DNA from: Cyanidiococcus yangmingshanensis
Taxonomy: Eukaryota > Rhodophyta > Bangiophyceae > Cyanidiales > Cyanidiaceae
Direction of reading: 5' to 3'
DNA length: 64,000 nucleotides
Assembly (NCBI GenBank): GCA_013995675.1
Contig: VWRR01000001.1
Span: 496,001-560,000 of the forward strand
This document shows positions 1,063 through 23,213 of this stretch, piece after piece; positions within the stretch are counted from its first letter, which is position 1, and every line of letters begins with the position of its first letter. Under the pieces are notes generated by a model. That model ran no database searches. It had not been told where the DNA came from and was given only the letters and a program-made list of their open reading frames with translations. Position numbers and translations under genes: made by a program.

Positions 1063-3427
1063 CTAGAGTTTCGCCATCGACGCCAAGTATCGGTTAGGCG
1101 GGAGCAAACTCGTTCCACCCAAGACAATCTCTAGATCAAGGTAAGCGGCTAGCGCGTAGATTTGCTCAATTTCAAAGGCCGAGACCCCACCGATGATCAC
1201 GAACAGGAATCGGTCGTTTTGATACCTCTGAGCCGCTTGATATAAGCGATTTGGTAGCGACGACATATCCTCGGTCGGGGTCGTCAACTCGAATATCATG
1301 GCGTGTGGTGTTGACGCTTCGCGAGCATGGTCTCTTGACAGCGGGGTCCTTTGTTCAATACACCCGGCCGTGCTTGCGGTAGGCTCTGTGAAAGATTCTT
1401 CGGGGTTACCGTCGAGACTGGTCGATGCTTCGCATGGCTCTGGATTGCTCGTAGAGGTTGCATCGCCAGAAGCAACGATGTCTCGCCTGGTCGACTCCAT
1501 GGACAAGGATGCATTGTGTTCTTTGTCTGCATCCACGGTGCGCAACACCGACAGACGAGACTCGGAACAGATACGCCTGGTTGCCGTCGTCGTTAGTATC
1601 GCTGTCGAGGTCGTTCGGTTGCTCGCGGGCGACTGGATGACGCCAGCGACTCTGTGTGCTGCTCCCAAAACTGGTGTCGAAACTCCATCTCGTGTCGCTG
1701 ACCAAGTTGTAGGGTCCTTCATCATTTCAGCACGCGTTTTTGGGCACGGTGTTGGCGTCGTGTCGGTTGTCGCACTCGAGGACAACTCGAGCCAGTCGCC
1801 TTCCTGCTCCGATGCATTGCCTCTATCATCGCCTGGCACGCTCATCTCGTTCTTCTGATGCGTATCAAAGGCACCGATGTACTGCAGCAGAATTTGACTC
1901 AGCATTGTCTCCGGTAGGAGCAATGTCGCCAGAGATTCCCGAGCGAGTGCCCGTGCTCGACGCCGTCGCCGAACGCGTGCTGCTCGACCCGCCCACTTGG
2001 CTGCTCGAAGTCGTCGCTGGAAGACGTCAGTCAATGCCGCCAGGGTCTCATGCTCCGCAGTAGAAAGGTGCGAGATTTTTTGGATCAACTCGGGTAGCGC
2101 ATGCGGATCTCTGCAGCCAATGAAGAGCAGGAGTAGGCGGACCTTGTCGTGGAATCCGTAGGCATCAGACTGGAGAATCTCCTCCAATGCACGGCGTACG
2201 ACTGCAGTGCTCGTCCGCGTTTTGCCGTCACATTCAACGCCGGTGAGCATCTTTCTCTCGAGTGTCCATAAATAGGCGAGGTTCCGCGTCTCTTGCTGGG
2301 CCAGGCAGCGTTGCAGATGGAGTGCGTGCCATCGCAGACGATCGAGTTCTTCTCGCTGGCTCGAGTCGTCGGTATTCACGGCTTCCAGCTGCTGAACCAG
2401 TTTCGCTATGTCTGGTTCTTCATCGCCTGGAGCCGAGCTCGCATTGTTCTGTGGATGGTCTCTCGGCGGGAGATACGGACGGGCCAGGTTCCAGAGGAGC
2501 GCGACGGCCTCTGCGACGGGACATCCTCGCAGATGCTGCCAAACCGGATCCTGCTCCGAGGGCCATGCTACAAGCTCCGACTCCAGGAGCATTCCCCGAT
2601 AGGTATCTACATGGAGAAGCGGCATCAACGGGTCCACTGCGCGATCCATGAGCAACAGATGCAGCGCACCGCGCCTTGATGACGCTGACTGACTGAATAG
2701 CGGCAGCAAATGTGCCGATACGTACGTTTGGGCAGCTCGGGCAATAGAGGTTGCCTGCTCACTCGCTGCTGGGGAGGTATGAATCTGAATCCATGGAGGT
2801 TCGTTGGTAAAACTGCCAGCACCCATTCCATAGAGAAGGGTACCGATCTGATGGCCCAACTCCTCCATGAGTTGAAAGCGCACTGCACATGTCTCGGGTG
2901 CATCGTCTCCGTACAGAAGACCGAACACGTCGCCATCCTGTATCGAGCGTCACGAGTCGCTGCTCCAGGGGAATGAAATCGAGATGAATCGGTAGAACCA
3001 TCGAGCGACCTGTGGTATCGGACCACGGCATTGAACGTCGCGGAGGCAACGGAGCATTGGGGTAACGTGTCGCGAAGAACAAGACCGGCACAGGGGCGTT
3101 ACGTTTCGCCTCAATGCGAGCTACGTTGGCCATCCAGTCTCCTGTTGGTGCAAGCAGGTAGATGGTGGGCCGCTGTAGTTCATCGCCGCCCCTTCGACTG
3201 AGCTGGTCAACCAGACAGGTACTGGTCGAGGACAAGCTTCTCGATAGGACGTTACCTACAGCACTCGTGATGAGCTTATGCGTACGGGCATCGAGGACCA
3301 ACAGCCAACTCGCCGTGCCAAAATGCCGATGTTGCTCACCGATCAAGGCAAGTAGCAGACGCTGTACCCGTTGCACCATACAGAAAGGCTGGAGATCCTC
3401 CTCCAACCGGGTCGTCATCGAGAACAT
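1063..3427 (-). CDS. Sec1/Munc18 (SM) family vesicle-fusion protein, read in two frames
   Basis: SM proteins clasp SNAREs and drive membrane fusion. The N-terminal frame (down to about 2940) has the SM domain-1 pattern: WLLVLDARTHKLITSAVGNV, then TIYLLAPT, VLFFATRYPNAPL and LDFIPLEQRLVTLD. The C-terminal frame (from about 2940) has LLLMDRAVDPLMPLLHVDTY, the SM domain-2 signature, and ends with FVIIGGVSAFEIEQIYALA and VLGGTSLLPPNRYL, the family's C-terminal motif. The two frames join at about 2935-2950 by a +1 shift, with no residues obviously missing. A long low-complexity Ser/Thr-rich insert lies before the C-terminal motif. Whether this is the Sec1, Sly1, Vps45 or Vps33 type cannot be decided. 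The start is uncertain: ATG codons at 3478, 3427 and 3379 are in frame, and all overlap the tail of the upstream gene. Confidence 0.85.
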
Positions 3428-5022
3428 ATACGATGGGTTTCGTTTCCCAGTTCCAGACTGGTGCACTACCAAAGGCATCTAACGGAGCATGGTCGAATCC
3501 ATCGGATTCGGTGCTCGCTGGAGAGCGAGTTCCCTTCTCAGCGACATCAGCTGCACTGAAGGTCTCCAAATGCCCGGTACGGTGATCACTACGGGCATTG
3601 CGCCGCTTCCGCAGGAGACACCAGCACAGCAGCGCCGTTCCCACGGACAGCCAAGACGACAAGGATGACCACAATGGCGACCACGGTACCAACACTGACG
3701 CCGCTTGGGGAGGCGTTCACAGGACTGGTGGTCGGAAGTTGGACTTGGATTGCCAACGCGTTCGATGAACCACAGGAAATAGGTCCCAATTCGGTCAAAT
3801 TGCTCAAACGACCACTACAGACGAATCCATTGAGCGCCCCAATGAATGAACTGGTGGCACTAGCGTTAATGATCCCAGCATAGGTGGCGATCACGGAACC
3901 CTGACGCAGCTCCACCATCACCAGCGGTGGGTTCGATATCAACGCCTCCCGAACACCCGAGTCCGTCAAAAGCGCTTGTGTGACATTACTCCCGACGCCT
4001 TCCGTGAATTTGCTCAACATGAGGGCCGTGAAGTTCAGTGGAAAGATAACGCGACGAGAATCTGTTCCCTGAAAGGCAGGCAGAGGCGCAGTGCTTGCGC
4101 GAGCACTCTGCACACCGCCTGCAACTGGAAATGGTAGAGGTGTCGGGCCAGGCCCGCTGCTCGAAACGCTGGTCACCAGTATGTTGGCGTAACGAACACC
4201 AGGACATCGAGCATTGTAAAGCGCCCAGGTGCCACTCGTGAATGTGTGATCCTCAGCGTCGATAGCGGATGCGCCATTGATCCAGATACGAATTCGGGCC
4301 CCATCACAACGTACATGAAGCGCGACGAAATCTCCAAGCGGAAATGGTTGCGCATGAGCAGCGGTAGCAATGGTCTTCCAGTTTCCATCGGCGACGACTT
4401 GCAACTGTTGACTGGCGCTCGCACTGCTCCCGCTCGGATCGTTGCCATTACTCCATACAAAGCGATAGTAGTTCTTCGAGTCCTGGATTCGAAACATGAC
4501 GCCAACCATGCCGTTGACAGCCGCATTCAATCCCACGTAAAGGTTATAGTCAGCGAGCGAGGACGACCCTGGTCCGATGTATTCCAGAAACGTGCCCGCG
4601 TAGGGATCGCCGCCAGCGCCACTCGGCGTGAATATGTTCTTTGTCTGCTCAAGCACAGCACCGCTTTCGTAACGCATTCCATTCGCATCCACGTCGGTCT
4701 CAATCCAGTAGGAGGGCGCTCCAATGATACCCTGGTCTACTGCCTGCCAAACACTGCGATCAATCGGACAGATCGGCAGGGTGCATGAAGAAAAACTCGT
4801 CTCAAAAATAACATTCGACCCACTTGCTCGCACGCTCCGACAATCCATGACATCGCCTTGATCCAAAAAAACTCCAGCTGCTCCACAATTATTCGCGAAC
4901 AGGAGCAAGAGCACGAACCAGAGCACAAGGCCAGACCTGAAAGACAGCGAAAGCCTTAACTGTAGCCATTCTAAACAACCAACAACGAGCGAACCCTCTC
5001 GGTTCCGCACTCCACCTCCCAT
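3336..5022 (-). CDS. Secreted/type I membrane protein with LamG-like (concanavalin) domain, frame change in TM region
   Basis: The start ATG at 5022 opens a frame with an N-terminal hydrophobic segment (residues about 30-48, GLVLWFVLLLLFANN), a likely signal peptide or anchor. Residues about 60-290 look like a LamG/concanavalin-type jelly roll: VGVMFRIQDSKNYYRFVW, FVALHVRCDGARIRIWING and TSGTWALYN. Several NxT/NxS sites follow. A hydrophobic stretch (GTVVAIVVILVVLAV) near residue 455 starts a membrane span. The first frame then ends at 3589 with a poor tail, whereas the +1 frame continues the span as GTALLCWCLLRKRRNARS, a normal stop-transfer sequence, and a cytoplasmic tail to 3336. The frame change lies at about 3640-3665. 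The tail overlaps the SM gene start by tens of bases. The ligand and function are unknown. Confidence 0.7.
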
Positions 5023-5219
5023 GCGTTCTCAAAAATAATCAAAACCTCAATCAACCGAACAATGAAAGCAACGCGTTAAAAGATAGAGACCAGTTCAATG
5101 ACACAACAAACAATCATGTTCATTGAAGCGAAAATAGACAAGTGGCGCTTGGCTCGATGCGCTCGCGTGACACGAGAACGAACAGCCACCTGTCACAGAA
5201 TGGACGCGTCGTGCGCCCA

Positions 5220-5326
5220 CCGTCCAGCGGAATGGACTTTTTTTGGCCCCCGGGCGATCCGCGTGCCGATGCGCAGGGGGTGGCCCGCCACCAACGAGAC
5301 ACCGCTGGGCCTTGTTCGCTGGACGG
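5220..5326. other. Inverted-repeat-bounded GC-rich segment, possible structured RNA
   Basis: CCGTCCAGCG (5220-5229) pairs perfectly with CGCTGGACGG (5317-5326). Inside lie a hairpin GGTGG-CCCG-CCACC (about 5278-5291), a run of seven T flanked by GGAC and GG, and CCCCCGGGCG. It does not match an snRNA, RNase P or SRP consensus that I can recognise. It could be a small structured RNA or only a GC-rich palindrome. Confidence 0.3.
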
Positions 5327-5456
5327 CACGCCACGAATCGCCGATTGCGGCCATATCGATGCAGATGCGATGCGCAACCATCGATTGTATCTGTGATTGA
5401 GCTGAAGAGCGTACGAGCACGGGAATATCGCGATTGCTACGATTTGGGGGGCACGC

Positions 5457-5744
5457 GCCCTTGGATGATGATTTCTCGATCGTTGCGTTTGAGACAGTGC
5501 TGTCCTTGATGATTCATTTATGGACAGATTGAACGTGCATGGCAATCGCTGGGATCTGCGGTGCCCTTGGATGATGATTTCTCGATCGTTGCGTTTGAGA
5601 CAGTGCTGTCCTTGATGATTCATTTATGGACAGATTGAACGTGCATGGCAATCGCTGGGATCTGCGGTGCCCTTGGATGATGATTTCTCGATCGTTGCGT
5701 TTGAGACAGTGCTATTCTTGATGATTCATTTATGGACAGATTGG
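5457..5744. repeat. 106-bp tandem repeat, about 2.7 copies
   Basis: The unit beginning GCCCTTGGATGATGATTTCT recurs at 5457, 5563 and 5669, exactly 106 bp apart. The third copy stops after about 76 bp. Copies 1 and 2 are identical over the part inspected; copy 3 has two clustered substitutions (GTGCTATTCTTG for GTGCTGTCCTTG). The near identity suggests a recent duplication. The array ends 132 bp before the start codon of the COX7C-like gene. Confidence 0.95.
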
Positions 5745-5876
5745 GTTGTCTGGCGATGGTTAGGGCGCGTTCGTCCCCATCGCTTCCTGAATCCGTCTTG
5801 AAGGCTCGTGATTTTCGTGACCGACTGAGACGGAAACGTGTCTGGAGTTGGCAAGTGCTGAGCTGCGCCGTGGAAA

Positions 5877-6158
5877 ATGTCGACGACAAAGTTGTATACG
5901 AGTTTGCGCACAGTGTATTCTGGTGGACTAAGGGTGCTGATTCCACGTCGAAACTTGAGTGGCTCGCCAGTGAGTCGCAAAGCGGGGCACGACGAGCACA
6001 ACGGTCCGTACGCATACCTTCACGCTTCGCGGATGTACGACCTGAGTCACGCAAGTAAGTGGAAGTACGGTCTGGCTACGTTCACGTTTGTGGCAACAGG
6101 GCTTGGATTGCCGTTCTTCATGGTTTGGGTAACCCAGAAGAAGGCTGGGCTGATGTGA
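5877..6158 (+). CDS. Cytochrome c oxidase subunit 7C-like mitochondrial protein
   Basis: A 93-residue protein. The N-terminal half is rich in Arg, Ser and Thr with almost no acidic residues (TTKLYTSLRTVYSGGLRVLI), as in a mitochondrial presequence. The C-terminal half, KWKYGLATFTFV then GLGLPFFMVWVTQKK, follows the COX7C pattern of KW, a single membrane helix with a Gly-containing middle, then PFF-V and a basic end. COX7C is a small single-pass subunit of respiratory complex IV in the inner mitochondrial membrane. The start ATG at 5877 is the first in frame that gives a presequence. The gene is convergent with POLD4, about 100 bp away. Short subunits diverge quickly, so another single-pass inner-membrane protein remains possible. 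Confidence 0.7.
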   Translation: MSTTKLYTSLRTVYSGGLRVLIPRRNLSGSPVSRKAGHDEHNGPYAYLHASRMYDLSHASKWKYGLATFTFVATGLGLPFFMVWVTQKKAGLM

Positions 6159-6261
6159 GCGCAACAGACTGATCCAGACTCGTCCCGCACGGCCACGTTG
6201 TTGCTGCGCAGATGGTACAGCGGCAAGTGGCAGTTTGTGTTTTTGACGGACATGATCCTGT

Positions 6262-6909
6262 TTACAGGTTTCTTTGTGGAAAAGAAAATATGGGCTCAAG
6301 CAGTTCTATGGACGATGTTTGTGGCATAGAGCTGGTGAGCAGGTCCCGTACGCATGACGGCGGCTGGAGACCTAGTGCTTGCGCGCGCTCCCAGCGCCTC
6401 AACCGACTAACGCCCACACAGGGGCCATAGCGCATATCCAGATCAAATTGTCGTAAAGTATTTTCGATGAACTCGTTCGCACTCGAGTCAGTCAGGGATG
6501 TTGGGTATGCATGCCGGTTCGTTGCGGGCCCAACGATCGATACCAATGGTCTCGTCGCAGAACAAGACGCTTTCGTTGGTGTCGCCTTCCAGTCGTCGAG
6601 GTCAACGAGACGTGCACCCTCTGTCATCGCCGGTGGCCGCGGCGGCGTTGCAGCGCACCGCTTGCTCGCAGAAGCAGCGTCCCGTTCCTCAGGTTGTTTC
6701 GAGTATAAATCCAAACAGTCTTGACGCCCCAACGCAGCCCCAGTATCTGGCTGTACTGCCCTTCCAACTCCACGACTAGAGCGAGGGCGTTTCGGTGCAT
6801 TGACCGGGTCACTCACTCGTCGTTTCGCTTCACCTGCCCGGCTGCTGCGCTCTCCGTGCTTCCCAGAACGAGACCGGCCACTCGCCCCGGAACGCGTAAC
6901 GACTGGCAT
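6262..6909 (-). CDS. POLD4: DNA polymerase delta subunit 4 (p12 family)
   Basis: The 215-residue protein ends with the diagnostic family block: FDLDMRYGPCVGVSRLRRWE followed by RAQALGLQPP and a short hydrophobic tail. This is the POLD4/Cdm1 domain that stabilises replicative polymerase delta. The N-terminal two thirds are basic and Ser/Pro-rich without clear structure. The animal protein is only about 107 residues, so this one is extended. I see no clear PCNA-interacting (PIP) box near the N-terminus, which other family members carry as a basic motif. The frame is open to a TTG at 6915, but the first ATG is at 6909. It is divergent from eIF6. Confidence 0.88.
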   Translation of the reverse strand: MPVVTRSGASGRSRSGKHGERSSRAGEAKRRVSDPVNAPKRPRSSRGVGRAVQPDTGAALGRQDCLDLYSKQPEERDAASASKRCAATPPRPPAMTEGARLVDLDDWKATPTKASCSATRPLVSIVGPATNRHAYPTSLTDSSANEFIENTLRQFDLDMRYGPCVGVSRLRRWERAQALGLQPPSCVRDLLTSSMPQTSSIELLEPIFSFPQRNL

Positions 6910-7607
6910 AACCAAGGTATACGAAACCTTTGATGTTCACCCTCTCTCAAATAGTGTGTTTCGATTCAAACCAGAGTGGAGGAACTCCTCAAACCATATG
7001 CAAGCTCACTGTTTTCGGAAGACAACAGAAGCGTAGCCGTACGTAGCAAGGCGAGTATTGGCTGCGTGCCGTCGGCCATGCGTGCCACAGCGACCACGAT
7101 AACGATGGCCAAGACTCGGACAGTTAGAGAAAACAAGCTTCAATCCAAATTCCGTCAAGACAATGACATATAACCTTGTTCAAGCCAGCATGTCTGAGGA
7201 GCAAATCGGACTAGGTTCCATTCAGGAAAAGCTTGCACCCTTGGCATCCGTTCGGCCAATGATGTTGAGCATAGGCGCGCTCTCCGATGAACGATAGACA
7301 GCCAAGTCTCTGACGCTTCAGTGAGAGGCCCAGCAGTGTCTCTCTAAATATCATTCTTGTATGTTCCATATCCGAAAGAAGCTCATGATTGAAGCCGGAG
7401 ACGCTGCACATAGGCGACGTCTGGATATTTCTGGCTCGCAACTGCTCCAGGCCGGACGCAGGTAGGGCGCCCATCGGGAGGCGCGCACGTCCACTCCACA
7501 TGGTTGCCGAGTGCTGAGAAGAACGGTTGCGGCGGCAACAGACGTTCTTTGTGAAGCTTGGTTCACGTCGAAAGGTACTTGTTCACGCAGAGTCACACCT
7601 CAACTCG
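6910..7607. other. Divergent upstream region of POLD4 and eIF6
   Basis: About 700 bp shared by two divergent housekeeping genes. A 96-codon minus frame at 7211-7501 has no recognisable motif and is probably chance. No RNA gene was seen. Confidence 0.5.
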
Positions 7608-8354
7608 ATGGCTTTGCGAGTTCAGTTTGAGAATAACAACGACATTGGGTGTTTTGCTCGCCTCACGAACGCGTACTGTCTGGTCGCGGTCGGTGGCAGC
7701 GAGGCCTTCTATTCGGCGTTCGAAGCGGAGCTGGCTGATCATATTCCCGTGATCCATGCCTCTGTGGCCGGCTGCCGGATCATTGGACGTTTGTGTGTCG
7801 GGAACAAGAATGGTTTGCTGCTGCCGAATACCACGAACGACCAAGAGCTGATGCACATTCGCAACTCCTTGCCCGACAGCGTGGTCGTACAGCGAGTGGA
7901 GGAGCGTCTGTCGGCGTTGGGTAACTGCATCGCCTGCAACGATTACGCGGCACTAGTGCATACGGACCTGGACCGAGAGACTGAGGAAATTGTTGCTGAC
8001 ACGCTGCAGGTGGAAACGTTTCGTCAGACGCTTGCGGGCGAAGCGCTCGTCGGTAGCTACTGCTACTTTACGAACCAAGGAGGAATTCTGCACCCCATGT
8101 GTCGGATGGAGGATCTCGACGAGCTGAGTGGTCTCCTGCAGGTACCTCTCGTCGCTGGTACACTGAACCGAGGTAGTGAGGTGATCGGCTCCGGGATTGT
8201 GGCGAACGACTGGGTTGGTTTCTGTGGCTTTGTAACGACAGCCACGGAGCTCTCTGTCGTGGAGAGTATCTTAAAGTTACGAGCGTGGCAAGGTGATGAA
8301 GCGTTGGGCTCCGGCGACGCCCTCAAAACCTCGCTTATTGACGCCCTGGCCTAG
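7608..8354 (+). CDS. EIF6: Translation initiation factor eIF6 (Tif6)
   Basis: 248 residues, beginning exactly as the family does: [20 protein letters not shown]. It continues with [56 protein letters not shown] and the C-terminal [14 protein letters not shown]. eIF6 binds the joining face of the 60S subunit, prevents premature association with 40S, and is needed for nucleolar and cytoplasmic 60S maturation. The length equals the usual 245-248 residues. The frame is open upstream to a TTG at 7527, but the conserved start is the ATG at 7608. The gene is intact. Confidence 0.97.
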
Positions 8355-8374
8355 GAGTCAGGTTGGCTCCTAGG
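8350..8374. other. Perfect hairpin straddling the eIF6 stop codon
   Basis: CCTAGGAG (8350-8357) and CTCCTAGG (8367-8374) form an 8-bp stem with a 9-nt loop. The stem includes the TAG stop of eIF6 (8352-8354). It may be chance or may act in 3'-end formation. Confidence 0.45.
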
Positions 8375-9283
8375 AGCGCACACCGGGACGAACGACATTC
8401 GTCACAGCTTGGGAAAGTACGTGTTGCTGCTCAAGGCTAAAAAACCGAATGCGCTGCTCGTTGCATTGAATGTGCGTCGCCGAAAAACTCAGGGTGTGCG
8501 TCTGATTTCTCCATAACATCACATGCTATCGCGAACCATGACCACCTCGAGTATCATTTCGTCGATGAGATTCCTCTATCCGAAGACGGACCTTCGCGGC
8601 GAGAACAGCGCAACGCCTAGCAGACGAGCGACCAACCTAAGCAAGCAACGTCATGTATCGGCCGTTTCAGGAGACAAAAGTCTGGGGCATCACGACCCAG
8701 TGGACTCGAAATAGTTTGGAGGATCACTGAGGGCGACCTGCAGCAGAACGCAACCAGAAAAGTGACCCAAGTTGATGTGCTGAGCCTGTGAACAATGGTG
8801 GACTCGCTGCAGCAACCCGCTTCGATCAGAGACGCAAAGAAAAAGGCCCCTGCTGGGCGACAAGAAGCCAAGCGTCCTCGACGGAACCGCTTGCGGGCCC
8901 ACAGCGAGAACTTGGTAAACGCACAAACGCCCCGCGATAGGCAAGTGTCGTGGTTCGTAAGCCGCCGATTCAACCCTACAGCGACCGCACAAATAGATCA
9001 ACGTTAATACAGAATCCATGTTTGCCCTTGCAGCAAGCGATCGACACCCACACATACATCGATGCCTAAACATGCCTCATGGGTGTTGCCACGAGGAACC
9101 CAAAACCGCCAGAACGACGCGCGTCCACCGAAGCGAAAATCTTGGCGAAACCTGTTGGCTCTGTGAGGACTTTCCCCCTCGGTGAAGGTAGGTCGTATTC
9201 GCATGTTCTGCTCTGCACTGGAGGTAGTGGACGACTCGTCAGAAGGGTGTCTGTTGGTAACGCTCTGACTAGGAGCGTCGAGG
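8355..9283. other. Intergenic region between eIF6 and SWR1
   Basis: About 930 bp. Two overlapping minus frames (8617-8973 and 8690-9073) and a short plus frame have no recognisable motifs and no clear start context. Apart from the hairpin at its left edge I see nothing definite. Confidence 0.45.
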
Positions 9284-12200
9284 ATGGAGACATCCCCTCG
9301 TCTTCGTGGACAGCGCCGAGCAGACTATGCTGCGCTGGCAGGTCGCCGAAGCCAACTGCCTTCGATGTTGCCACGCTCGCCAGGCTGTCACGAAAATCAA
9401 GACGATCAGACCGGCGTCTCTGTTGCACTTGGCAAGCAGGATCGACCACGGGTACTAGAGGCACGTCCAAGGTCTGGTTTACAGGGCCACAGAAGCATCA
9501 GTCTGGTGGACGTGCTCCAGCAGGAGGCGCTCTATGTGGACGTGCTGGAAAGCCGACTTGGCGAACGTCTTCGTGAACTGGCCCGACGGGCAGCAGCCTC
9601 TAGAGATGAGCACCGTCGTCAAGCGCACCTATTGCAAGTGCGTGCCGAACGAGACCTGAAAAGGAGACGCGTTCGAGAACACGCCCCTAGTGTGCCTGCC
9701 AAACGTCTGGCGTCTGAGTCCCGCTCGCGAGCCACCGCTAGTCCAGGTGTTGCTGGTTCACCAGCTCGACAAGGTCTAGCCATGAGTGTCAGCGCCGATA
9801 GCATAGGTGCCGCAGATCGTGAAGCGACGACAGTGCCCGTCGATGAACGGATGTCTCAGGAGATGAAATATGGTCTCCCTGTCGGACAAGACGAGTCACC
9901 AAAACTGGAATGTCTTCAAGCATCGAGTCAACGACTCGAAGAGGCAGTATTGAGCGCTCACGACCCAGAATTAGATGCCCAACGAAGGATCGAGGATCAG
10001 ATTCTCCGGGAAGCAGCCGAAATTCAACAACGCAACCTCGAGTCGGCCAAAGCACGATTACCCAAACAACCCGAGCCGCCTCGTTCGAAAACTCATCAGG
10101 ATTACTTTCGCGAGAGCATCATCTGGCTGGCGACAGATTATCGAGAACAATTCAAATGGAAAGCAGCCGCTCGCTCTAGGATTCATCGAACACTAGCAAA
10201 GTATCACGAAGAACGGAGTATTCGGGAGGCCCGCGAGACGAACGCCCTCGAGGCGTCACGTCGTCGTTACGCGAGGCTATTGAGTCGAGAAGTTCGCAAG
10301 TTTTGGGAATCACTCTTTCGAATGATGTTCTCTCAACGACTGGAGGAGGACGAGCGAAAACAGAAGCAGCAACGGCAGACGCGGCTGGATGCACTGATTC
10401 AACAGACGGAGCAGTACGCACAGGCTCTGGCTGAGGAGCTGGCGCCGTTGGACGTCCAGGACGCGTCGCCCTCCCTATCCACCTCTGTTTTCGAGCAAGT
10501 AGAGGCGACTGGGACGGATACGCATCCCAGTTTACGGAAGGGTACCGCCGCCACGAACAGGGCAAACGCGTCCGAGCCAGCAACAGACACGAGCGACCCC
10601 GAACAGGAGGATGATCTACCCAACCGATGGCGGCAGGCAGGCAGTCTAGAGGTCCAAGAGGTGCTGCGGTCGCTGCATCCCAAATCGGAACCAGCCTTGT
10701 CCAAGGAGAGATGCACCGACGCAACACCATCAAACGCCAACGGATTTCGACAAGCTCCACAAGGGGCCACCCAGACGTTGTCTTCGACTGCACCCGTCGT
10801 GCTAGAGGCCGACTCCATTTCCCGGACGCCCCGAAAGGAAAGGTTAGAGGAGGATCTCATGCTGAGCATCGGCGAGCCACAACCCAGTGCAGAGCAGCCG
10901 ATTACAAACGCGCTTACGCAGACATCTTCGATATCGCTCACGAGAGAGATACCTAGCGCGAGTTCGCACCCACAGACCGCGAGTTCAGCCCAAGATACCG
11001 GCGTTCAGGTTGACACGAACCCGCTCTTTCGAGGCCACTTGCGTCCATACCAACAAGCTGGTTTGCAGTGGCTGATTGCGCTCTACGAAAAGGGTCTCAA
11101 TGGCATGCTTGCGGACGAGATGGGTCTCGGAAAAACCGTGCAGACCATCGCTCTCTTGGCCTGGCTGGCAGTTGCCAAGCAAGACTGGGGTCCGCACCTG
11201 GTCGTGGTACCCACCTCAGTGGTTATGAACTGGGATATCGAGTTCAAAAAGTTCGCTCCAGGGCTCAAAGTGCTCTGTTATTTTGGTAGTCCCCAGGAGC
11301 GTGCAACCAAACGCAGAGGCTGGACCAAGCCGAACGCCTACCACGTCTGTATCACCTCGTACCATATGGTGGTTCAAGATGCCACCATCTTTCGTCGTCA
11401 GCGCTGGAGCTACCTTGTGCTCGACGAGGCCCAACACATCAAGAACTTTCAGAGTCAGAAATGGCAGACGCTGCTGACGTTCCATTCGAGACATCGTCTG
11501 TTACTCACAGGGACGCCGCTCCAGAACACGCTCATTGAACTCTGGTCCCTTTTGCATTTTTTGATGCCTCAAGTCTTTCGCAGTCATAGTGAATTTAAGG
11601 AATGGTTTCAGGAACCTATCGAGACGCTCGTCGAGGCCGAAGCAGACGTCCACGACAGCCTTGTGCAGCGTCTGCATCGAGTCTTGCGACCATTCGTGCT
11701 TCGCAGACTGAAGCGGGATGTCGAACGGGGCCTGCCGCCCAAGACCGAACAAATCATCTGGTGTACCTTGAGCAAGCGACAGCGCGAGCTCTACGATGAT
11801 TTCCTCAGTCGGGCCTCGACACGCGAAAAGCTGACCAGCGGAAACTACCTCTCGGTGATGAATGTGCTCATCCAGCTACGCAAGGTATGCAACCATCCGG
11901 ATCTGTTTGCAGGGAGACCCATTCAGGAACCGTACGCTAGTCAGCAACCACTTGTACTCCACGTGCCTCGATGCGTTCGCTCGGAGGCGCTCTGTCTACG
12001 AGATGCTGCTGTACCGCTTCTGGTCGACGAGTCCCTAGACAAGCCAGATGCTGCTCGCATTCGAGCACTTTCGGCAGCGAGTCGACTGCTCTGGGAGACC
12101 GAGGCATCGGCGAGCCCTGCGAAAGCCGAGACTGCGCTTGGTCCTTGGTTTCGACTCCAGACAACCATAGACGCTGAGGAGCTCAAGGAACGACAAGCAC

Positions 12201-14743
12201 TGCGTCTGGTGTCGTGCACACGATTTGTTGCCGGACCACTAATTGGGTGCACGCAACGACGTCTGGCTCAGGTAGCGTTCCATCGTGTGCCTGTCATACA
12301 CCCAGGCGCTGTACTGGAGCGTCTCGTTGATGAGGTCATGGCCCCAGCGACCCGCTTTGCGATGGTTACGCAACGCGTCTGGGCACCAGTGCCTCAACTA
12401 GTCAGTATCGCCGCATTTCTCTACCAGCGACCGGCGAGACGAGCGCTTCCATCCAGCATGGAGTATCTGTTGCGTCTGTGCCGACCACTGGCCAGTCGTC
12501 AACAGCTGCTCTTCCCGGATGCTCAGCTCCTACAATGGGATTGTGGCAAACTGCAGCGACTCGCAGTCTTGTTACGAGACTTGGAGCGCCAGGGGCATCG
12601 AGTGCTCATCTTCACCCAGATGGCACGTATGCTGGATATTTTGGAACAGTTTCTGTGTCTGCATCGCTTCTCCTACATCCGGATGGACGGCAGCACGCGT
12701 ACCGACTGGCGTCTTCGCCTTTGCGAACGTTTCAATACCGATCCACGGTACTTGGTGTTTCTATCCACTACTCGCAGTGGCGGGGTTGGTCTGAATCTCA
12801 CCGGAGCCGACACTGTCCTCTTCTACGACTCGGACTGGAACCCCACCATTGATGCCCAAGCACAGGATCGTTGTCATCGCATCGGTCAGGAACGTCCCGT
12901 ACGTATCTACAGACTCGTGTCCGAAAGCACCGTTGAGGAGCATATTCTGCGTCGAGCAATGCAGAAACAGCGCCTCGAACGACTGGTCATCGCCCAAGGC
13001 CTTTTTACGACAGAGGTGCTGCAGCGCGTCCATCCTTTGGAGCTGGTAACAGACGCTGCCATGCGTCCAACACCGTATCCGAATGCTCACGGCGAGCTCG
13101 TCGAGTGCGGCCTCACCGAACAGGAGTACGAACGGCTGGAGAGCGTTGTACTCGAAGCCGACGACGAGGAAGAGCGGTTTATGCGAAAGGCAATGGAGTT
13201 GGCGGCCTCGGCGAATGCCACGCTCGATGAAGCTGACTTTGCAGAGACTCGTTCACCGGGTCCGAGTCTGGATGCTACGAACTGGTGCCCCGTTTGGCGT
13301 ACTGCTTGGCGGATCGCGGGAGCACTGGGCGGGCCCATGGCTGCGCTCGAGGAGGCTTGTGTATCACCAAAGCCCAGCTCGAATGGATGGAGTTCAAATA
13401 ACCCCGAACAAGTCATCTTGGGCGATATCAATCAGGACGCTGCCCCGCCACTAGTCTATCCTGCTGTACCTGCTCGAGGCATTTGGGAACAAAAAAACGA
13501 GCACGGGGGTCTCAACACCACACCGATGATGATGATCTATTGCCCGCCAGTTGAGACCCCCGAAGACCTCGTTCTCGACCCAGAGGCGGGCACTGAAGAC
13601 GCTACGTTTTTCATCCACGCGTATGCGCGAGTAGCTCGTTCGGCTGCGCCTACGCCTAGCCAGATGGCACGGCTGCAGGAGCTTCAGCAACTCGCTTCCG
13701 ACGCCCAGAGGAAGGATCCAACCAAGGCTGCCGAAACGATTCCTTCCGTAACCGCACCCAAGGCATCCAAAGCCGGCATGACGCGTGTTGCCTCTCGTCC
13801 TGTTGTTGTTGCGAACAAGTCGAACGCAATCTCTGAACCAGCCGGAATGTCAACCATCTCGCTTGGGCTCGAACGCAGAGCGCTTTTGAACCTTCAACCA
13901 TGGATGCGGAATCGACTCCAATGGACTGCTGAGGAGGATTTGACGCTCTTGCGGGCCTGGCAGTGCTACGGCGCTAACGGACGGCTCCTCGCTGATGTAT
14001 TGCAAGCACAACCAGGTGTCCGACTCGGGTTGCTTCCACATCGAAGCGGTAACGAGATTCAGGAGCGTCTGCAGCATCTGCTCGCGAACAAGATCACTGA
14101 ACCGGCAGCATGGTTTCGATGGCGAGGCTCCGTGCAAACAGCGACCTTGCCAAATATGCGAAAACACCATCAACGTTCGTTGCAGCTCGCTCAACGACGC
14201 GTGCTGGGTATGCGGGCTCGCTTAGATGCACGAAAGCTGCTTGCTGCTGCTGAGCCGGAGTCAAAGAAGGGCGCTACTTCATCCGAACAGGCGCTCGTGC
14301 CGCTACTGAACAAGCGCGGAACGAGAGCTACGCCAGACGCTCAAACAGATCCCCTGATGTTGAGTCGTTCACCGAATGAAGGTCGTCTACCTGAGGCGCC
14401 AGACGAGCACGACGCGGTGGTGGTGCGGTCGTCACCGAGCAGCAGCTCATTGGATCCCCGCTCACTGAGCACGCTGCAGCCATCATCCTCTGCGCACCAT
14501 CGACCAGGTGTGAAGCTTGAGGAAGAGCTTCGTCGAAGGCGACCGTTTCGTCGCCACCCGGCCACACTTGGTCGACTACGCGGGTTTGAGCGTCACGGAA
14601 ACCAAAGGCCAATCCGAATACCAGCAGTCTTCATGGGACGTCCCTGGAGTAGCGAATGGGGTTCTGGGTCAACCCGGAGGAGGCTTCTGGAGCCTCTCTC
14701 TGGCTTTGAAAAGCCTATGAAAAGAGCATCACGAGTGAAATGA
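9284..14743 (+). CDS. SWR1: SWR1/SRCAP/PIE1-type chromatin remodelling ATPase
   Basis: 1,819 residues in one frame. In order: an HSA domain (residues about 270-345, YFRESIIWLATDYREQFKWK); acidic and Ser-rich linkers; a SNF2 ATPase N-lobe from about 585 (HLRPYQQAGLQWL, Walker A DEMGLGKT near 610, DEAQ box near 712, LTGTPLQN); a long insert between the lobes (about 880-1080), typical of the INO80/SWR1 branch; the C-lobe (LIFTQMARMLDILEQF near 1108; DRCHRIGQERPVRIYRLVS near 1195); and a SANT/Myb domain near 1545 (QWTAEEDLTLLRAWQCYG). The stretch YFGSPQERATKRRGWTKPN is typical of SWR1 rather than INO80. The complex exchanges H2A for H2A.Z at +1 nucleosomes. It is the longest gene here and has no frame break or intron. 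Confidence 0.95.
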   Translation: METSPRLRGQRRADYAALAGRRSQLPSMLPRSPGCHENQDDQTGVSVALGKQDRPRVLEARPRSGLQGHRSISLVDVLQQEALYVDVLESRLGERLRELARRAAASRDEHRRQAHLLQVRAERDLKRRRVREHAPSVPAKRLASESRSRATASPGVAGSPARQGLAMSVSADSIGAADREATTVPVDERMSQEMKYGLPVGQDESPKLECLQASSQRLEEAVLSAHDPELDAQRRIEDQILREAAEIQQRNLESAKARLPKQPEPPRSKTHQDYFRESIIWLATDYREQFKWKAAARSRIHRTLAKYHEERSIREARETNALEASRRRYARLLSREVRKFWESLFRMMFSQRLEEDERKQKQQRQTRLDALIQQTEQYAQALAEELAPLDVQDASPSLSTSVFEQVEATGTDTHPSLRKGTAATNRANASEPATDTSDPEQEDDLPNRWRQAGSLEVQEVLRSLHPKSEPALSKERCTDATPSNANGFRQAPQGATQTLSSTAPVVLEADSISRTPRKERLEEDLMLSIGEPQPSAEQPITNALTQTSSISLTREIPSASSHPQTASSAQDTGVQVDTNPLFRGHLRPYQQAGLQWLIALYEKGLNGMLADEMGLGKTVQTIALLAWLAVAKQDWGPHLVVVPTSVVMNWDIEFKKFAPGLKVLCYFGSPQERATKRRGWTKPNAYHVCITSYHMVVQDATIFRRQRWSYLVLDEAQHIKNFQSQKWQTLLTFHSRHRLLLTGTPLQNTLIELWSLLHFLMPQVFRSHSEFKEWFQEPIETLVEAEADVHDSLVQRLHRVLRPFVLRRLKRDVERGLPPKTEQIIWCTLSKRQRELYDDFLSRASTREKLTSGNYLSVMNVLIQLRKVCNHPDLFAGRPIQEPYASQQPLVLHVPRCVRSEALCLRDAAVPLLVDESLDKPDAARIRALSAASRLLWETEASASPAKAETALGPWFRLQTTIDAEELKERQALRLVSCTRFVAGPLIGCTQRRLAQVAFHRVPVIHPGAVLERLVDEVMAPATRFAMVTQRVWAPVPQLVSIAAFLYQRPARRALPSSMEYLLRLCRPLASRQQLLFPDAQLLQWDCGKLQRLAVLLRDLERQGHRVLIFTQMARMLDILEQFLCLHRFSYIRMDGSTRTDWRLRLCERFNTDPRYLVFLSTTRSGGVGLNLTGADTVLFYDSDWNPTIDAQAQDRCHRIGQERPVRIYRLVSESTVEEHILRRAMQKQRLERLVIAQGLFTTEVLQRVHPLELVTDAAMRPTPYPNAHGELVECGLTEQEYERLESVVLEADDEEERFMRKAMELAASANATLDEADFAETRSPGPSLDATNWCPVWRTAWRIAGALGGPMAALEEACVSPKPSSNGWSSNNPEQVILGDINQDAAPPLVYPAVPARGIWEQKNEHGGLNTTPMMMIYCPPVETPEDLVLDPEAGTEDATFFIHAYARVARSAAPTPSQMARLQELQQLASDAQRKDPTKAAETIPSVTAPKASKAGMTRVASRPVVVANKSNAISEPAGMSTISLGLERRALLNLQPWMRNRLQWTAEEDLTLLRAWQCYGANGRLLADVLQAQPGVRLGLLPHRSGNEIQERLQHLLANKITEPAAWFRWRGSVQTATLPNMRKHHQRSLQLAQRRVLGMRARLDARKLLAAAEPESKKGATSSEQALVPLLNKRGTRATPDAQTDPLMLSRSPNEGRLPEAPDEHDAVVVRSSPSSSSLDPRSLSTLQPSSSAHHRPGVKLEEELRRRRPFRRHPATLGRLRGFERHGNQRPIRIPAVFMGRPWSSEWGSGSTRRRLLEPLSGFEKPMKRASRVK

Positions 14744-16307: not shown

Positions 16308-16538
16308 CTTTCATACCAATCAGTTCGAGCAGTACGTCTTCCCGATCCGACAGTGTTTAGTGGAATGGAACCGGAGTCGAGTGCAGAAGCCCCACCCAGC
16401 GTGTGGGTACTCGCTGCTGCAGTTTGGCACCCGAGTCGCTGCCAGACCGCCAACGCGGCTCCTTGTCGCTGTTCGTAGACAGGACACCGTCTGCGCTTTG
16501 AAACGTTCTCTCTTGTTGATTTTGTGTTCTTTCACGGG

Positions 16539-16808
16539 ATGCAGGGGAGAAAATGTCTGATCAAGTCGGTGGATATGCCGGATGATCGACAGCAGTTCGC
16601 GGTCGAGACAGCGGCGACCGCCATCGAGAACCACCAGGTAGAGAAGGACGTGGCTGCAGCAATCAAGAAAGAGTTTGATGCCAAGTTCGGACCGACTTGG
16701 CACTGTATTGTTGGACGTAACTTTGGTTCGTACGTGACGCACGAAGCTGGATGTTTCATATACTTTTACTTGGACCAGATTGCGGTGCTTCTCTTCAAGT
16801 CTGGGTAG
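16539..16808 (+). CDS. DYNLL: Dynein light chain LC8 (DYNLL)
   Basis: 89 residues, exactly the usual LC8 length. It contains [38 protein letters not shown] and [19 protein letters not shown], ending LLFKSG, near-identical to LC8 in all eukaryotes. LC8 dimers bind short linear motifs in many partners, including dynein intermediate chain and nucleoporins. The start at 16539 gives MQGRKCLIK, aligned with the family start; the frame is open upstream to a GTG at 16524. It is divergent from the TBC gene. Red algae have no flagella, and some lack dynein motors, so a dynein-independent hub role is plausible here. Confidence 0.96.
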
Positions 16809-17594
16809 TCGAAACGTTTGCTGGATCACGCGGCGGTTGTGAGCCGTCCTAGACGCCTACCGACACACTTGTGGGGCCAGTTCTATGCCGAGTTCTCGAT
16901 TCTTTTTTGCAGTTGATCGCTTGCACAGCCAACTGGGGTTCAAAACGAAACAGGGTCTTTGACGCCCACGAACACTGGTTCACGCAAACGTTAAAGCGGC
17001 GATCGGTATGTTGACTTTCGACGCACGACCCATCCAAGCTTCCGATATTGCTCCAATAGAGTCGTCTCCGCTTGCGGTAGATCCGTTGGCTGGAACTAGG
17101 CACCATTGTGTCATGATTGTCCGACCAGCTAACTCTACGGTCAGTCGTATCTGCTGAAAGGAAGACTTTCTCGGATGGCGGAACGGTCTCGAAAGCGTAC
17201 CGCCATCGCTTTCTCTCTATCTGTCGATCTGTATGTCTGAATCACGTACAGTACATGACCCCAGGAAATACATTGCTGCCTACTGAGCGAATCAATTGTA
17301 TAGAGTCGATACGAATATCTTTCGTGAAACGCGTAGGTCGTAGAGTCGCGTCAGTCGTCTCGTGTGGCATTGTATAGAGAGGTACCCGAATCAACGGATA
17401 TCGTTTCGCGAACGTTTTCATTGCTGCTACAAACCAGTAATGACGACGACGACGACACGACATGTGGCACGAATGGCGTGAGTCGTTCCAGTCAAGCAGC
17501 GTGGCCCGACGTACACAGCGCTCAAACACGATGCCGTGTCGGAGAACACCGCTCTCATCGACGATTCTGGCTCGGAGCTTGTGCTTGAAGAATC
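16809..17594. other. Convergent intergenic region between LC8 and SF3B2
   Basis: About 790 bp between two 3' ends. Minus frames at 16849-17106 and 17242-17598 have no recognisable motif. A short GAC-repeat run lies near 17440-17460. Nothing else was identified. Confidence 0.45.
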
Positions 17595-18635
17595 TCACTT
17601 CACTCGGTTTCCGACAGTTGTTGCAAATCTAAAGACCGCATCTTCTGTTGATTGGGTTACGTCTATATCGCGGAGCAGGTCGGGAATCTTCGGTTCATCG
17701 GAGAGGTCCAGGTCCAACACCAGACCTTTGCGACACCAGCGCAAGTGCCCCTATATCCGATACCAATTCTGTCGACGGGTTCTGCATTTGACCCCAGCGC
17801 TGTTGCCTCGCTATCGAGTCGATCGTGCGAACAAGGCAGCCTGCTTGTCCCGGTTGAATGCTCCATCGGAAGGATGCCTCCTCCATGGCGGGATACGCTG
17901 GAGGCGACGGCCTACCTGTTCGCCGCCATCCCTCTCGCCAAGGGCATTCATGAATGGAACACGTTGCTGGGTCAGACCAGTTGAGGGCCTCAGCAAGTGC
18001 TGTTGAGATGACACCTGGACGAAATGAACAACCGCGGAGTGGATCAAACTCCGATAAAGCCGTGTACACATCACCGTGGTCTCGAAGACGACTCCATAAA
18101 CGCCAAGGCGTTGAACTCGAGTGCATGGACTCGTCAACGGGTCCGAAACGCTGCAACAGCTGCTGCTGTGCTTCGCGCACGAATGCTACAGTTCCACTCG
18201 GCAAGCCACGTTTGTTCTCCAGGTATTTACGCTTCGAAGCGCCAGTGCGATGGCACAGGTACTGTGAAGCGTTCACCCTTGATGCGCACCAAAGCGACTG
18301 GTTCTGGCGCTGCACAGTCCCACGGCTCTACCACCGAGGGCCATGGAGCGTGCAGCTTGAGGTCCGCCACTCGAGGACGAAGCGCTTTACGTTGCTTCCG
18401 GGAAACGCGTTGAGGTGCGGCTGACGTCTCTGACCAGTCAAGCGAGCGTAACCGTCGATTTCGCTGTTGTTGCGTTAAAGTCGGTGATGTTCGCTTCTCA
18501 GTATGCACGGGAACCGCCTCGTTCCAGTTGTTCGCCAAAGTCGTCATCCCAGCTCGAGGTGTCTGTTGCGTTGGCTCCAGTCCCGAGACGTTGCAGCGCT
18601 CGCTGCATATCTGAAGGGAGTGCTGCTTCACTCAT
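17595..18635 (-). CDS. SF3B2: Splicing factor SF3B2 (SF3b145/Cus1), reduced form, interrupted by +1 frame changes
   Basis: The U2 snRNP subunit SF3B2 is recognised by its DUF382 block: SRKQRKALRPRVADLK, VVEPWDCAAPEPVALVRIKG, FTVPVPSHWRF, then KRKYLENKRGL in a second frame. It continues with the PSP-type region (HGDVYTALSEFD, FRPGVISTALAEAL, PW followed by RPSPPAYPAMEEASF). HWRF and KRKYL, adjacent in all homologues, are separated by one surplus base (C at 18235 on the plus strand). The likely start (ATG at 18635, MSEAALPSDMQRALQRLG) is in a third frame that joins the body at about 18500, again by +1. A further +1 step may add an acidic tail (LVLDLDLSDEPKIPDLL) ending at 17595; otherwise it ends at 17695. 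At about 315-345 residues it is far shorter than the 600-900 residue homologues. Confidence 0.8.
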
Positions 18636-19112
18636 TACTCCTCTTCCAGATGCACCGACATTCGCGATAAAATCCTTTTTCGTACGAGCTCTTTATCGAA
18701 TCAAAAACCAAGTCCGTTGTTCCGCAGGCCAGTGAGCGCTTCACTGCCGGTGAAGCGTTGGTTGTGTCTTCAGGCACCCAGCTTTCAGGTTGTCGTCCGA
18801 AGGGCGATACCCTTAGTCTGAGCTCACTGGCGACGAACCCGCCATGACAGGTCAAGGTTATCTTTGAGTTCGTAGGGGACTGTCTCAACGTTCGAGCCTA
18901 ATAAACTCTAGTGAACCAACGTGGGCTTGGAGTATTTTTTTCTGAGGAGACCCTTGACTGCTGCGCTCGGAGCTGGGCGTCGCTCCCACCGCGACCGAGA
19001 GACAAGCCAAGCTGGGGTTTCCGAGACGGTTCGCCGTTCCCTGACCCAGGCGTGAGCGTAAGCTTCGAGATTCTTGCTCGTGCGTGGTGGAAACCAGCAG
19101 CAAACGAGAAAC
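18636..19112. other. Divergent upstream region of SF3B2 and NAA10
   Basis: About 480 bp between two divergent starts. Several short overlapping frames have no recognisable motif. Confidence 0.5.
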
Positions 19113-19653
19113 ATGGTGACGATTCGACGGGCGACACCAGCGGACCTCTTGGCGATGCAGCACTGCAACCTCCAGTGCTTGCCAGAAAACTATCAAATCA
19201 AGTACTATATGTATCACTTGTTATCGTGGCCTCACTTGCTCTACGTGGCGGAGGAGTCAGACGGAACTGTTGTGGGCTATGTACTCGCGAAAATGGAGGA
19301 GAGTGCTGGGACCAGCGACGCCAGCGCTGGTGTCAGTAGCTCGACAGGTTCGAACCAAGCGGCTCCAACTCGACATGGCCATATTACGTCCTTGGCAGTG
19401 AAACGTACACATCGGAAACTCGGTATTGCCAAGCGGACTTATGCAGATTGCTCACGAAACAATGCGAGAGGAGTACAAAGTGACCTACGTCTCGTTGCAT
19501 GTTCGCGTAAGCAACCAGGCTGCGCAACACCTATACAAGGACTCGCTAGGATACCAAATACATGCCACAGAGGTTCGCTATTATGCAGACGGAGAGGATG
19601 CATATGACATGCGTCTGTGGTTTGTCCCTTCTCGTTCGCGTAAGCATGACTAG
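19113..19653 (+). CDS. NAA10: N-terminal acetyltransferase NatA catalytic subunit (Naa10/Ard1), one-base frame break
   Basis: NAA10 acetylates nascent chain N-termini on the ribosome together with Naa15. The first frame gives [71 protein letters not shown]; the second gives [40 protein letters not shown] and [11 protein letters not shown]. Together these are collinear with animal and yeast Ard1 without a gap. The acetyl-CoA loop RTHRKLGIA is intact. The break is one extra A at 19437, between the codons for KR and LM. The total, 541 nt, is 180 codons plus one base. The start ATG at 19113 aligns with the family start. In a gene this conserved, an assembly insertion is the likeliest cause. Confidence 0.93.
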
Positions 19654-20342
19654 TTCATTATCGGAAGCGATAAGCTGACTGTATACTGGCGCTGAACGCG
19701 GTGCGAGTGACGTGCGGATAAACAGCAACAACGGTTGAACCAGTGACCCTGAACGTTGACAGGATTGTAAGCTGCCCATGGGTACGGTAGTATCGATGTC
19801 AGTTTGGATGATGGTTGTGCTCGAAGCGACCTACTTTGTTGCACGACATCGATACACGCTGTCGTGTATGGACGAGTCTTATTGTCTCTCAAGGTGGTCT
19901 GTTGACGCATAGCGATCAAGAACTTGCGGCTGGAATGATCTTGAACTCTCCTGGTATCTCTGTTGGTGTCTGTAAATGCGATATGTCGTATCGTATCGAA
20001 CCAAAGTGCCGGTCCAGTAAACCTGCTGAATACCGGCTCGTTGTTGTTGCCGTACCCCACCAGCGTCACAGGTGGGGCGGGGGTTCATAAGACGCGCGCT
20101 CCGAACGACATGCTCCTTTACAGAGGTGTCTCACTCGGTACTGCGAACAACTTTCGGAGGAGCTTTGGACGACGTTCGAGTGCGCTTCTATTCTTGCGGT
20201 TGTGCCAACGCAGAAAACTTGGGTGCTCAGACCGCTTCTAGGGACCGGAGCGCTGGACGAACGTACCAGAGACCAGGCTCAACGGTCACTGGTAGGAACG
20301 CACACTCGCCTCGTTCGTGGTCGCGCTCCATTAGAAACTAGA
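19654..20342. other. Intergenic region between NAA10 and the HEAT-repeat gene
   Basis: About 690 bp. Minus frame 19650-20069 and several short plus frames show no recognisable motif. A frame open from 20202 leads into the HEAT gene but has no ATG before 20343. Confidence 0.45.
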
Positions 20343-22026
20343 ATGGCGACCAAGGTCGAATCTGAACAGGTCGCGGAAAAGCTTGATAGTGTTCTGATCA
20401 CGTGGGAGAGGTTGCTCGAGTCTGGCGCGTTCGAACTCGCCCAGAAAGAGACGACTGCGTTGCGACGGCTCATATCGGCCAGTGTACCTCCCAAAACGGT
20501 AGAGAAGACTCCTGAGCTTGAGACGAACGCGGTCTGGCTGCGACACCAGGCTACGCTCTGGTATCGTTGGGTGCCGGTGCTCTGTCGGGCTGTGCGAAGC
20601 GAACAGGCAGGTTCCTGCTCCCTTCTCTGTTTTCTCTTTGAGGATGCGAGGCGATTCCTTTTCCCCTTATGCGGCTTGGCAAAACCCGTCCGCCATCCGA
20701 AGCCAGGACGTCTACCGGGGAGTTCAATCACTGCGGTGCGTCCTTCATGGCCGACCTTTGTGCCTGTTTCCGAACGATATCGGATGCATCTGGGACTCGT
20801 TTATGACACGCTCGGGACAGCTCTAGGAGTAGTACATACACCAGAGTCGCTGGATGTGGTAACCATAACGGGTGGCAAAGGAGTGGTAGACCATAGTACC
20901 TGGGTGTGCCAGCTCATGCGTTGTCTCGGCGTTGTGGTGCAGAACACACCCTCCCGATGCCTTCCTACGGAGCAACTGGGCACGCTCCAGCAGTTGATCT
21001 GGAAACAGTACGCCCTGTCCGTGGGACGGGAGGTAGAGACGCTCCGCGCTGCAGCGTTGTCGTGCCTGAAGACGATTCATACTCGTCTAGGTACGTTTCC
21101 ATCTTTGAGTCTGTTACTGGAGGATCACGAACGTTGGAACGATACTCATGTGGTTTCGTTTGTGGAAGCGATGTTGGCGCTACGGACGCATCTTCGCGAG
21201 TCCCGTCATCAACACGATAGAGAGGATGTTCAATCCGATGAGCTCGTTATGCAGATGATACATCATCACCTCGGATGTTCGTCCACATCATCGACCTTGC
21301 GACTGCAGTCAGCAAGATTGTTGCGACAAATGCTGCGCCTGCATCCGCAACTCGGGGAGACCCAACAAGCGCTCACGCTCAACTTGTTGCGGGATTCGTT
21401 CCACGCCGTTCGCGTTGTTGCTGTGGATTGCTTGACGCAACGCGATACCGGATTGGATACGCAGATGATGTTCGTCGAGTTCCAAACGCTAACGAGGGAC
21501 CCAACCGCTGCCATGCGGGCTGCGGCTTGCACTGCACTAGGACGAATACCGCTTGCGGATTCGGTCACTGAAGCTATGTTGGTGAATTCTGCTGACGCAT
21601 CCACGCCGACGATCGATACTGACCTGTCAGCGGACTCTTGAGCTGCTTGCTGAGCGACTCCGTGTGGACCCAAATACGCATGTGCGGGCGGCAGCGGCTG
21701 CAGCACTTGGAAATCTCTGCTCTAGAAATGGTCGCCTCTCGAGCGCGCTTCCGGAAAGCACGATCACTGCTGCGGTAGAGGAGCTGGAGCGAGCACCTTA
21801 CTCGAGCCACGCGAGTACATACTGCCGCCTTTTGGCGACAGTGACTCCGAACGAAACCCGACGTGTCCAAATGGTTTCAGTAATCGGTCGGATTTTGCAG
21901 GGTGCACGTCGCAAACAACTGCGATATCATGCGGCAACGGCACTGGCGAGGCATCTGCAACGAGCCGATGATACGGCCCTTTGGTCCCTAGTGAAGCACT
22001 CCCAGGACCACAATAAACGACTGTGA
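20343..22026 (+). CDS. HEAT-repeat protein, HEATR6-like, with a +1 frame change
   Basis: The first ATG in the long frame is at 20343. The protein is alpha-helical with repeated HEAT-like units: VETLRAAALSCLKTIHTRLG, LRLQSARLLRQMLRLHPQLG, FHAVRVVAVDCLTQRDTGLD, AAMRAAACTALGRIPLAD. In the second frame come HVRAAAAAALGNLC and KQLRYHAATALARHL. The frames join near 21630-21640, +1, giving TLELLAERLRVDPN after DTDLSA. The span length is 561 codons plus one base. The arrangement and spacing resemble HEATR6 (an N-terminal DUF4042 domain followed by HEAT units), a poorly characterised eukaryotic protein. The coding signal may continue past the TGA at 22024: the same frame reads on as HETPLLLDFVVALEQYDRCH to a TAG near 22168. 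The function is not known. Confidence 0.6.
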
Positions 22027-22221
22027 TGGACTCGCTCAGGACCAGCGGCGAAATCACCTTTGAAAGCGAGACATTCAGTGCGAGTCGAGCATGAAACCCC
22101 CTTGCTGCTTGATTTCGTCGTCGCCCTTGAGCAGTACGATCGATGTCATCTGGCTGCAACGATGAACTAGATCGCTCGCTCGCGTCAACTTTACAGGGGG
22201 TAACTGTGCCGTTCTTCTCCG

Positions 22222-22588
22222 ATGGCAGAGCGAGCCACGATCGTTCGTGATTTATGCAAAGATCGGGTCCTGGATTTGGATCGATCGAAAGCGCTCGTCG
22301 AAACGATGGAAGCCGATCAGATCGCAGTGAACTCAGCGAATCGACTGTAATGCAAAAGAGATCAGGAACGTTGTAGATTGGAAAGTGCTACCGAGCGTCC
22401 AGAAAGGCAGCATGAACCTGACGCTCGATGGTGCATTACAGAGGAGGGATGACTCTGGACAAGAAGCGTTCATGGCCCAGCAGGCGCATCCAGTGCACCC
22501 ATTTTGTTGGTCGCATGCACCATGCGAATCGAATGCGAGGGCATCCTTCTTCAAGGCAGCAAATGATCCAAGCAAAGTCAACAAGTAA
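22222..22588 (+). CDS. Possible small orphan protein read in two frames
   Basis: An ATG at 22222 opens a short frame (MAERATIVRDLCKDRVLDLD, then RSKALVETMEADQIAVNSA) that stops near 22350. The +1 frame continues as NAKEIRNVVDWKVLPSVQKG, SMNLTLDGALQRRDDSGQEA and ends at 22588. Both halves have protein-like composition and the total is 122 codons plus one base, the same pattern as the neighbouring broken genes. I do not recognise the product, and the gene itself is uncertain. Confidence 0.3.
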
Positions 22589-23213
22589 CCTTCACGTAGA
22601 TTTGTCTGGATGTCAACGAGTGCTCATACGACGACGTAGCAGGTCGATCGGAAGACACAGACTCTCGCACATGACTGGGACGAGCAGCAGACGCTCATGT
22701 CACGCTGCATCACATCTACCAGAGAAACGACCGATGCATCTGGGCGATTAAGGTCGAAATCAGGGACCGCTAGGGACGTCCATAGGAGTGCGCGTGGACT
22801 GAATATCAACCAGTGCTCCCATGTCTGTGATCTGAGTATACTCGTCCTGGTGACAAGAGGAATGGTGTCTGCTGTAGAGAACAGTGCTTTTCATCATGAA
22901 TCGGCGGTTGCGTACTTGGTTATACGGGGAGACGTCAGACGCGGCACATGTCCAGAATGAACATTTATAAATAACGATGTCTAACCATAACCCTATTCAA
23001 TCCATGTTTTCGTACACGTGTCCAGAATGAACATCAATGAACAAATACATCTAATGATGACCCTAATCAGAACATCTCTCGTTGGCATGGCGGATTTCGC
23101 GACGACGTCGACGCATGGGGCGGGCCGCTCCAACGATGGCACGGTCGTCGCTCACTCGCGGCGCAATACTCCCCTGGTTGGTTGGTTGGTAACGACTCGC
23201 TTGTTAGAGCACC
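22589..23213. other. Intergenic region upstream of the phosphate carrier
   Basis: About 625 bp with short meaningless frames, an imperfect direct repeat (22946-23065), and a GGTT run at about 23176-23190. No gene was recognised. Confidence 0.5.
22946..23065. repeat. Two-copy imperfect direct repeat, period about 70 bp
   Basis: ACATGTCCAGAATGAACAT (22946-22964) recurs as ACGTGTCCAGAATGAACAT (23016-23034). Each copy is followed by degenerate similar sequence (ACCATAACCCTATT versus GATGACCCTAAT). Confidence 0.6.

Follow-up and report, generated by a model that had tools for sequence, protein, structure and literature searches.

Five genes in the first 22 kb of the window, which is the whole 64-kb stretch of DNA analysed, each appear to carry one surplus base that is probably absent from the organism's DNA. 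The surplus bases are very probably single-base insertion errors that incomplete polishing left behind in a long-read draft assembly; the frame breaks are present in the sequence but look ordinary, and they point to no new way of gene reading. The original prediction preferred surplus assembly bases over programmed frameshifting, and every test run supports this choice, while the assembly error itself is something that we infer; "systematic" is too strong a word for the insertions, as surplus bases are seen in genes at five sites only.

Frame breaks in five genes

The window comes from the nucleus of a photosynthetic eukaryote with few introns, probably a red alga of the Cyanidiococcus or Cyanidioschyzon type. 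Pfam matches in its long open frames include plastid-type functions (PsbP and FabI), and the genes examined show no sign of introns; GC and intron content are similar in Porphyridium. The GC content of the window is 55.1%, and a hand-made gene list puts ~30 genes in 64 kb, one per ~2.1 kb, separated by ~0.72 kb on average. GC, gene spacing and the absence of seen introns fit Cyanidiococcus-like red algae: the published values of Cyanidiococcus yangmingshanensis (genome of 12.0 Mb, GC 54.6%, 36 introns, 930 bp between genes on average) come closer to the window than do the values of Cyanidioschyzon merolae (genome of 16.5 Mb, GC 55.0%, 1,890 bp between genes on average) or Cyanidium, with a GC content of 65.7% (PMC9812998). 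An Rfam search of the window returns no match, no relatives of the locus are found in viral_contigs, and a single tRNA gene was detected, tRNA-Val (CAC) at 29410-29484 on the minus strand. The features considered below are as follows.

1066-3426, minus strand: SM (Sec1/Munc18-like) gene, net +1 frame change at ~2941 (Pfam Sec1 in both frames, PDB, codon HMM)
3340-5028, minus strand: LamG / 3-keto-disaccharide-hydrolase-like gene with a C-terminal transmembrane segment, probable net +1 break at ~3645
9269-14743, plus strand: intact SRCAP/SWR1-type SNF2 helicase gene of 1,824 codons, used as a control (Pfam HSA, SNF2 and Helicase_C in one frame)
17660-18546, minus strand: SF3B2 (Cus1) gene, net +1 break at ~18235, 3' end approximate (DUF382 and PSP frames, human alignment)
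19113-19653, plus strand: NAA10 (ARD1) gene, one surplus base at 19437 (GNAT profile in successive frames, human match)
20091-22026, plus strand: HEATR6-like HEAT-repeat gene, net +1 break at ~21633 (HEAT repeats in both frames, three-frame translation)
22222-22350, plus strand: small orphan reading frame, frame break unsupported

NAA10 is the cleanest case of a frame break. The GNAT profile is matched from position 5 to 79 in frame 19062 and from 80 to 116 in frame 19063, with exactly base 19437 left over between positions 79 and 80 of the profile. Once joined, the protein matches human NAA10 with E = 8.6e-55, so that the +1 step proposed for this gene is confirmed. A Ser/Ala/Gly-rich extra loop of ~20 residues (19290-19375, plus strand), well upstream of the join, is the only large difference from the human protein.

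In SF3B2, the DUF382 match stops at 18236 in one frame and a weak PSP match (E = 0.0073) lies in the next, with the chain resuming one base further on. The joined protein aligns with human SF3B2 free of gaps at the join (HWRFKRKYL vs HWCFKRKYL), and the joined reading PVPSHWRFKRKYLENKRG has the same length as human PVPRHWCFKRKYLQGKRG. The domains and the alignment bear out the break predicted at ~18235; the second site proposed in this gene, at 18500, does not require a shift because the final frame is opened by an ATG at ~18546, upstream of the conserved part, and a third site is unsupported. SF3B2 is very short here, at ~280 codons vs 895 residues in human, which fits a reduced spliceosome.

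A single surplus base with homology continuous on both sides is thus found in both NAA10 and SF3B2. Removal of the base at the RNA level, whether by a cryptic intron or by editing, would restore the frame, but homology reaches both sides of one base in NAA10 and runs gap-free in SF3B2, leaving no intron room. No non-coding segment separates the coding pieces of either gene, and introns are excluded at these joins because only one base lies between the aligned NAA10 pieces and the SF3B2 alignment to human is gap-free. To our knowledge, editing that deletes one base from a nuclear mRNA is without precedent in red algae, and removal at the RNA level has next to no probability.

The remaining three breaks are net values, as homology in the SM, LamG-like and HEATR6-like genes fits one surplus base and two missing bases equally. 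In the SM gene, whose PDB matches are syntaxin-binding proteins, the Pfam Sec1 match is divided between minus-strand frames 2762-3478 and 1063-2946, and a codon-usage HMM that makes no use of homology switches frame at 2940/2941, in agreement with the +1 step expected at ~2940. The HEAT repeats of the HEATR6-like gene resume in the +1 frame past ~21633, and repeats in both frames uphold the break predicted there.

The LamG-like gene probably has a net +1 break at ~3645, to judge from codon statistics and a transmembrane segment. Pfam PF06439 is matched upstream of the break, the codon-usage HMM changes frame at ~3645 with homology left aside, and a transmembrane helix followed by RKRR appears only when the frames are joined; no homology is found past the join, and the claimed +1 step is to this extent only partly upheld. 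When joined, the LamG-like gene runs tens of bases into the start of the SM gene, which lies on the same strand (3340-3430, minus strand), and a further HMM switch at 3406/3407 is the boundary between these two adjacent genes. A tandem array (5457-5743; 106-base unit, 2.7 copies, 98% matches) adjoins the LamG-like gene.

The orphan at 22222, which had been thought to display the same +1 pattern, has no Pfam match in any plus-strand frame, and its translation shows nothing that requires a shift; the claim is unsupported.

Further breaks, direction and clustering

The codon-usage HMM, which is blind to pieces under ~100 codons and for this reason missed the breaks in SF3B2, NAA10 and the HEATR6-like tail, finds no -1 break, no break in either direction right of 23 kb and none besides those listed. 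Within this range the absence of -1 cases among recognised genes, as first noted, holds. A six-frame Pfam scan of the gaps recovers a dynein light chain, DNA polymerase delta subunit 4, COX7C, a weak VASt match and a HEAT fragment. The DNA polymerase subunit sits in a single open frame, and the COX7C and VASt matches were not located on follow-up. The HEAT fragment is the only gap domain fragment that resembles a broken gene; it comes from a gene that the window's left edge truncates and was rejected as a hidden break.

Intact genes stand amid the broken ones, namely eIF6, the SRCAP/SWR1-type helicase (PDB SRCAP match, E = 6e-231), RabGAP-TBC and the dynein light chain. The broken genes are unrelated to each other, and SF3B2 and NAA10 serve core functions. 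Right of 23 kb, 16 Pfam-supported genes are intact, which together with the lack of HMM breaks agrees with the expectation that identifiable genes on this side are whole. A proteasome alpha-type-7-like subunit (55330-56280, plus strand), which appeared truncated by Pfam alone, contains an insert of ~25 residues and has an intact C-terminal part.

A net +1 change is given by homology in four genes (SM, SF3B2, NAA10 and HEATR6-like) and by codon statistics in the LamG-like gene. All five breaks thus go in the +1 direction, with a two-sided p = 0.0625 under equal odds (p = 0.125 for the four homology-backed sites alone), and the direction is not significant by itself. PacBio raw reads contain 8.0% insertions and 3.2% deletions (PMC7671305), and five out of five in the +1 direction is ordinary because raw errors of this kind favour insertions. 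The claim that all breaks are +1 is weak, as it is based on these five sites at p = 0.0625, and two of the sites originally listed fail. As to location, recognised coding sequence has five breaks in ~15.1 kb on the left vs none in 20.8 kb on the right, a clustering with a probability of ~0.013 for a boundary that was set after the sites were known. The idea of a local effect is supported insofar as all breaks lie in the first 22 kb, and is weakened by this post hoc boundary. Neither the direction nor the clustering requires a special cause.

Stops, codons and motifs at the joins

As a null for the distance to the next stop in the old frame, one base was inserted at each codon position of intact genes. 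Random insertion places this stop at a mean of 31.8 and a median of 21 codons, and within one codon in ~8% of cases; the observed distances are 60, 18, 3, 57 and 3 codons, with a mean of 28.2. The two distributions do not differ (KS p = 0.82), a comparison that has little power with five sites. At three of the five joins the old frame stays open for 18-60 codons, in accordance with the early view that most breaks lack a nearby in-frame stop, and this excludes a stop at every shift site. Codons at the joins are common, each occurring 87-304 times among 9,465 codons, and no unused sense codon is found in that set; shifting at rare or unused codons is excluded by these counts.

No obvious slippery motif is shared, as had been suspected. 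The longest k-mer common to two join regions is the octamer AGCGGACT (NAA10 and HEATR6-like), which is equalled or beaten in 22% of random draws (P = 0.22) and is read in one frame at the first of these joins and in another at the second. Its core GCGGACT occurs 8 times in the window vs 11.7 expected, and also lies within the intact ZNF598 gene; AGCGGACT is accordingly rejected as a slippery motif. Long homopolymers are absent at the joins.

Were the bases real, with ribosomes stepping +1 over them by programmed or tolerated frameshifting, core genes would need non-triplet decoding at sense codons, which would be remarkable. The +1 direction of all five breaks speaks for such decoding, as does the position of the SF3B2 and HEATR6-like breaks within three codons of a stop, but the other three joins run on through the old frame, the join codons are common and no common motif stands in a common frame. 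We know of no case of +1 frameshifting in red algal nuclear genes, and this reading is very unlikely. Still less probable is its extension to a red-alga-like nuclear genome that tolerates +1 indels, where ribosomes would pass single surplus bases in core genes at sense codons and with no fixed motif.

Origin of the surplus bases and comparison with known systems

The surplus bases are most likely sequencing or assembly errors, as the breaks are placed as random insertion would place them, with no preference seen for stops, codons or motifs. Real one-base insertion mutations in the strain or culture, with the genes left defective or substituted by copies at other loci, would look the same as error in a genome sequence taken without its reads, and some tens of indels across the whole genome do separate resequenced strains of C. 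merolae (PMC7291098). Five insertions in ~20 kb would however amount to thousands across the genome, far beyond these strain differences (PMC7291098). SF3B2 and NAA10 are moreover core genes, and the sequence past the break is still well conserved, so that real mutation is an improbable source of the bases.

Insertion errors fit an assembly of the type made for the C. merolae Soos strain, for which PacBio P4-C2 reads, Canu and three Quiver rounds are described, with no short-read correction described (PMC6629376); that the window comes from the Soos assembly is a guess. Multi-exon genes were called at 9.4% in Soos vs 0.5% in the finished 10D genome (PMC6629376), as expected where gene finders bridge frame errors. 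The Soos strain was later placed in Cyanidiococcus, and earlier cyanidiophycean genomes have inaccurate gene models (PMC9812998). Two observations count against random insertion error: in some published long-read assemblies the errors that persist are for the most part homopolymer deletions (PMC12007338), which is evidence against because the direction is opposite, and the left clustering is slightly above expectation (p ~0.013, post hoc). A literature search on PacBio single-base insertions found nothing. Gene models taken from the assembly may contain false introns, split genes and apparent pseudogenes, and call for caution before evolutionary conclusions are drawn.

Among known systems, antizyme-type programmed +1 frameshifting takes place at TCC TGA. 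The HEATR6-like join region contains TCT TGA and is superficially alike, but this is a single case here and the other joins have no TCC TGA-like site. A slippery motif held in common and in one reading frame is likewise not seen, AGCGGACT being confined to two joins. The +1/+2 frameshifting of Euplotes (PMC10235951) resembles the window in the number of unrelated nuclear genes that depend on a +1 step; the Euplotes shifts occur at internal stops, whereas here the old-frame stop does not stand directly at each site and three of five joins are well removed from one. Perkinsus mitochondria (PMC9550989) also take forward steps within conserved genes, but do so at unused codons and in conserved places, whereas the codons at the present joins are common and all sense codons are in use. 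The residual indels of long-read drafts (PMC12007338) differ in that the bacterial cases are mostly false deletions, where the window has insertions only and no long homopolymers; they are like the breaks described here in being scattered single-base indels that split conserved genes and carry no functional motif.
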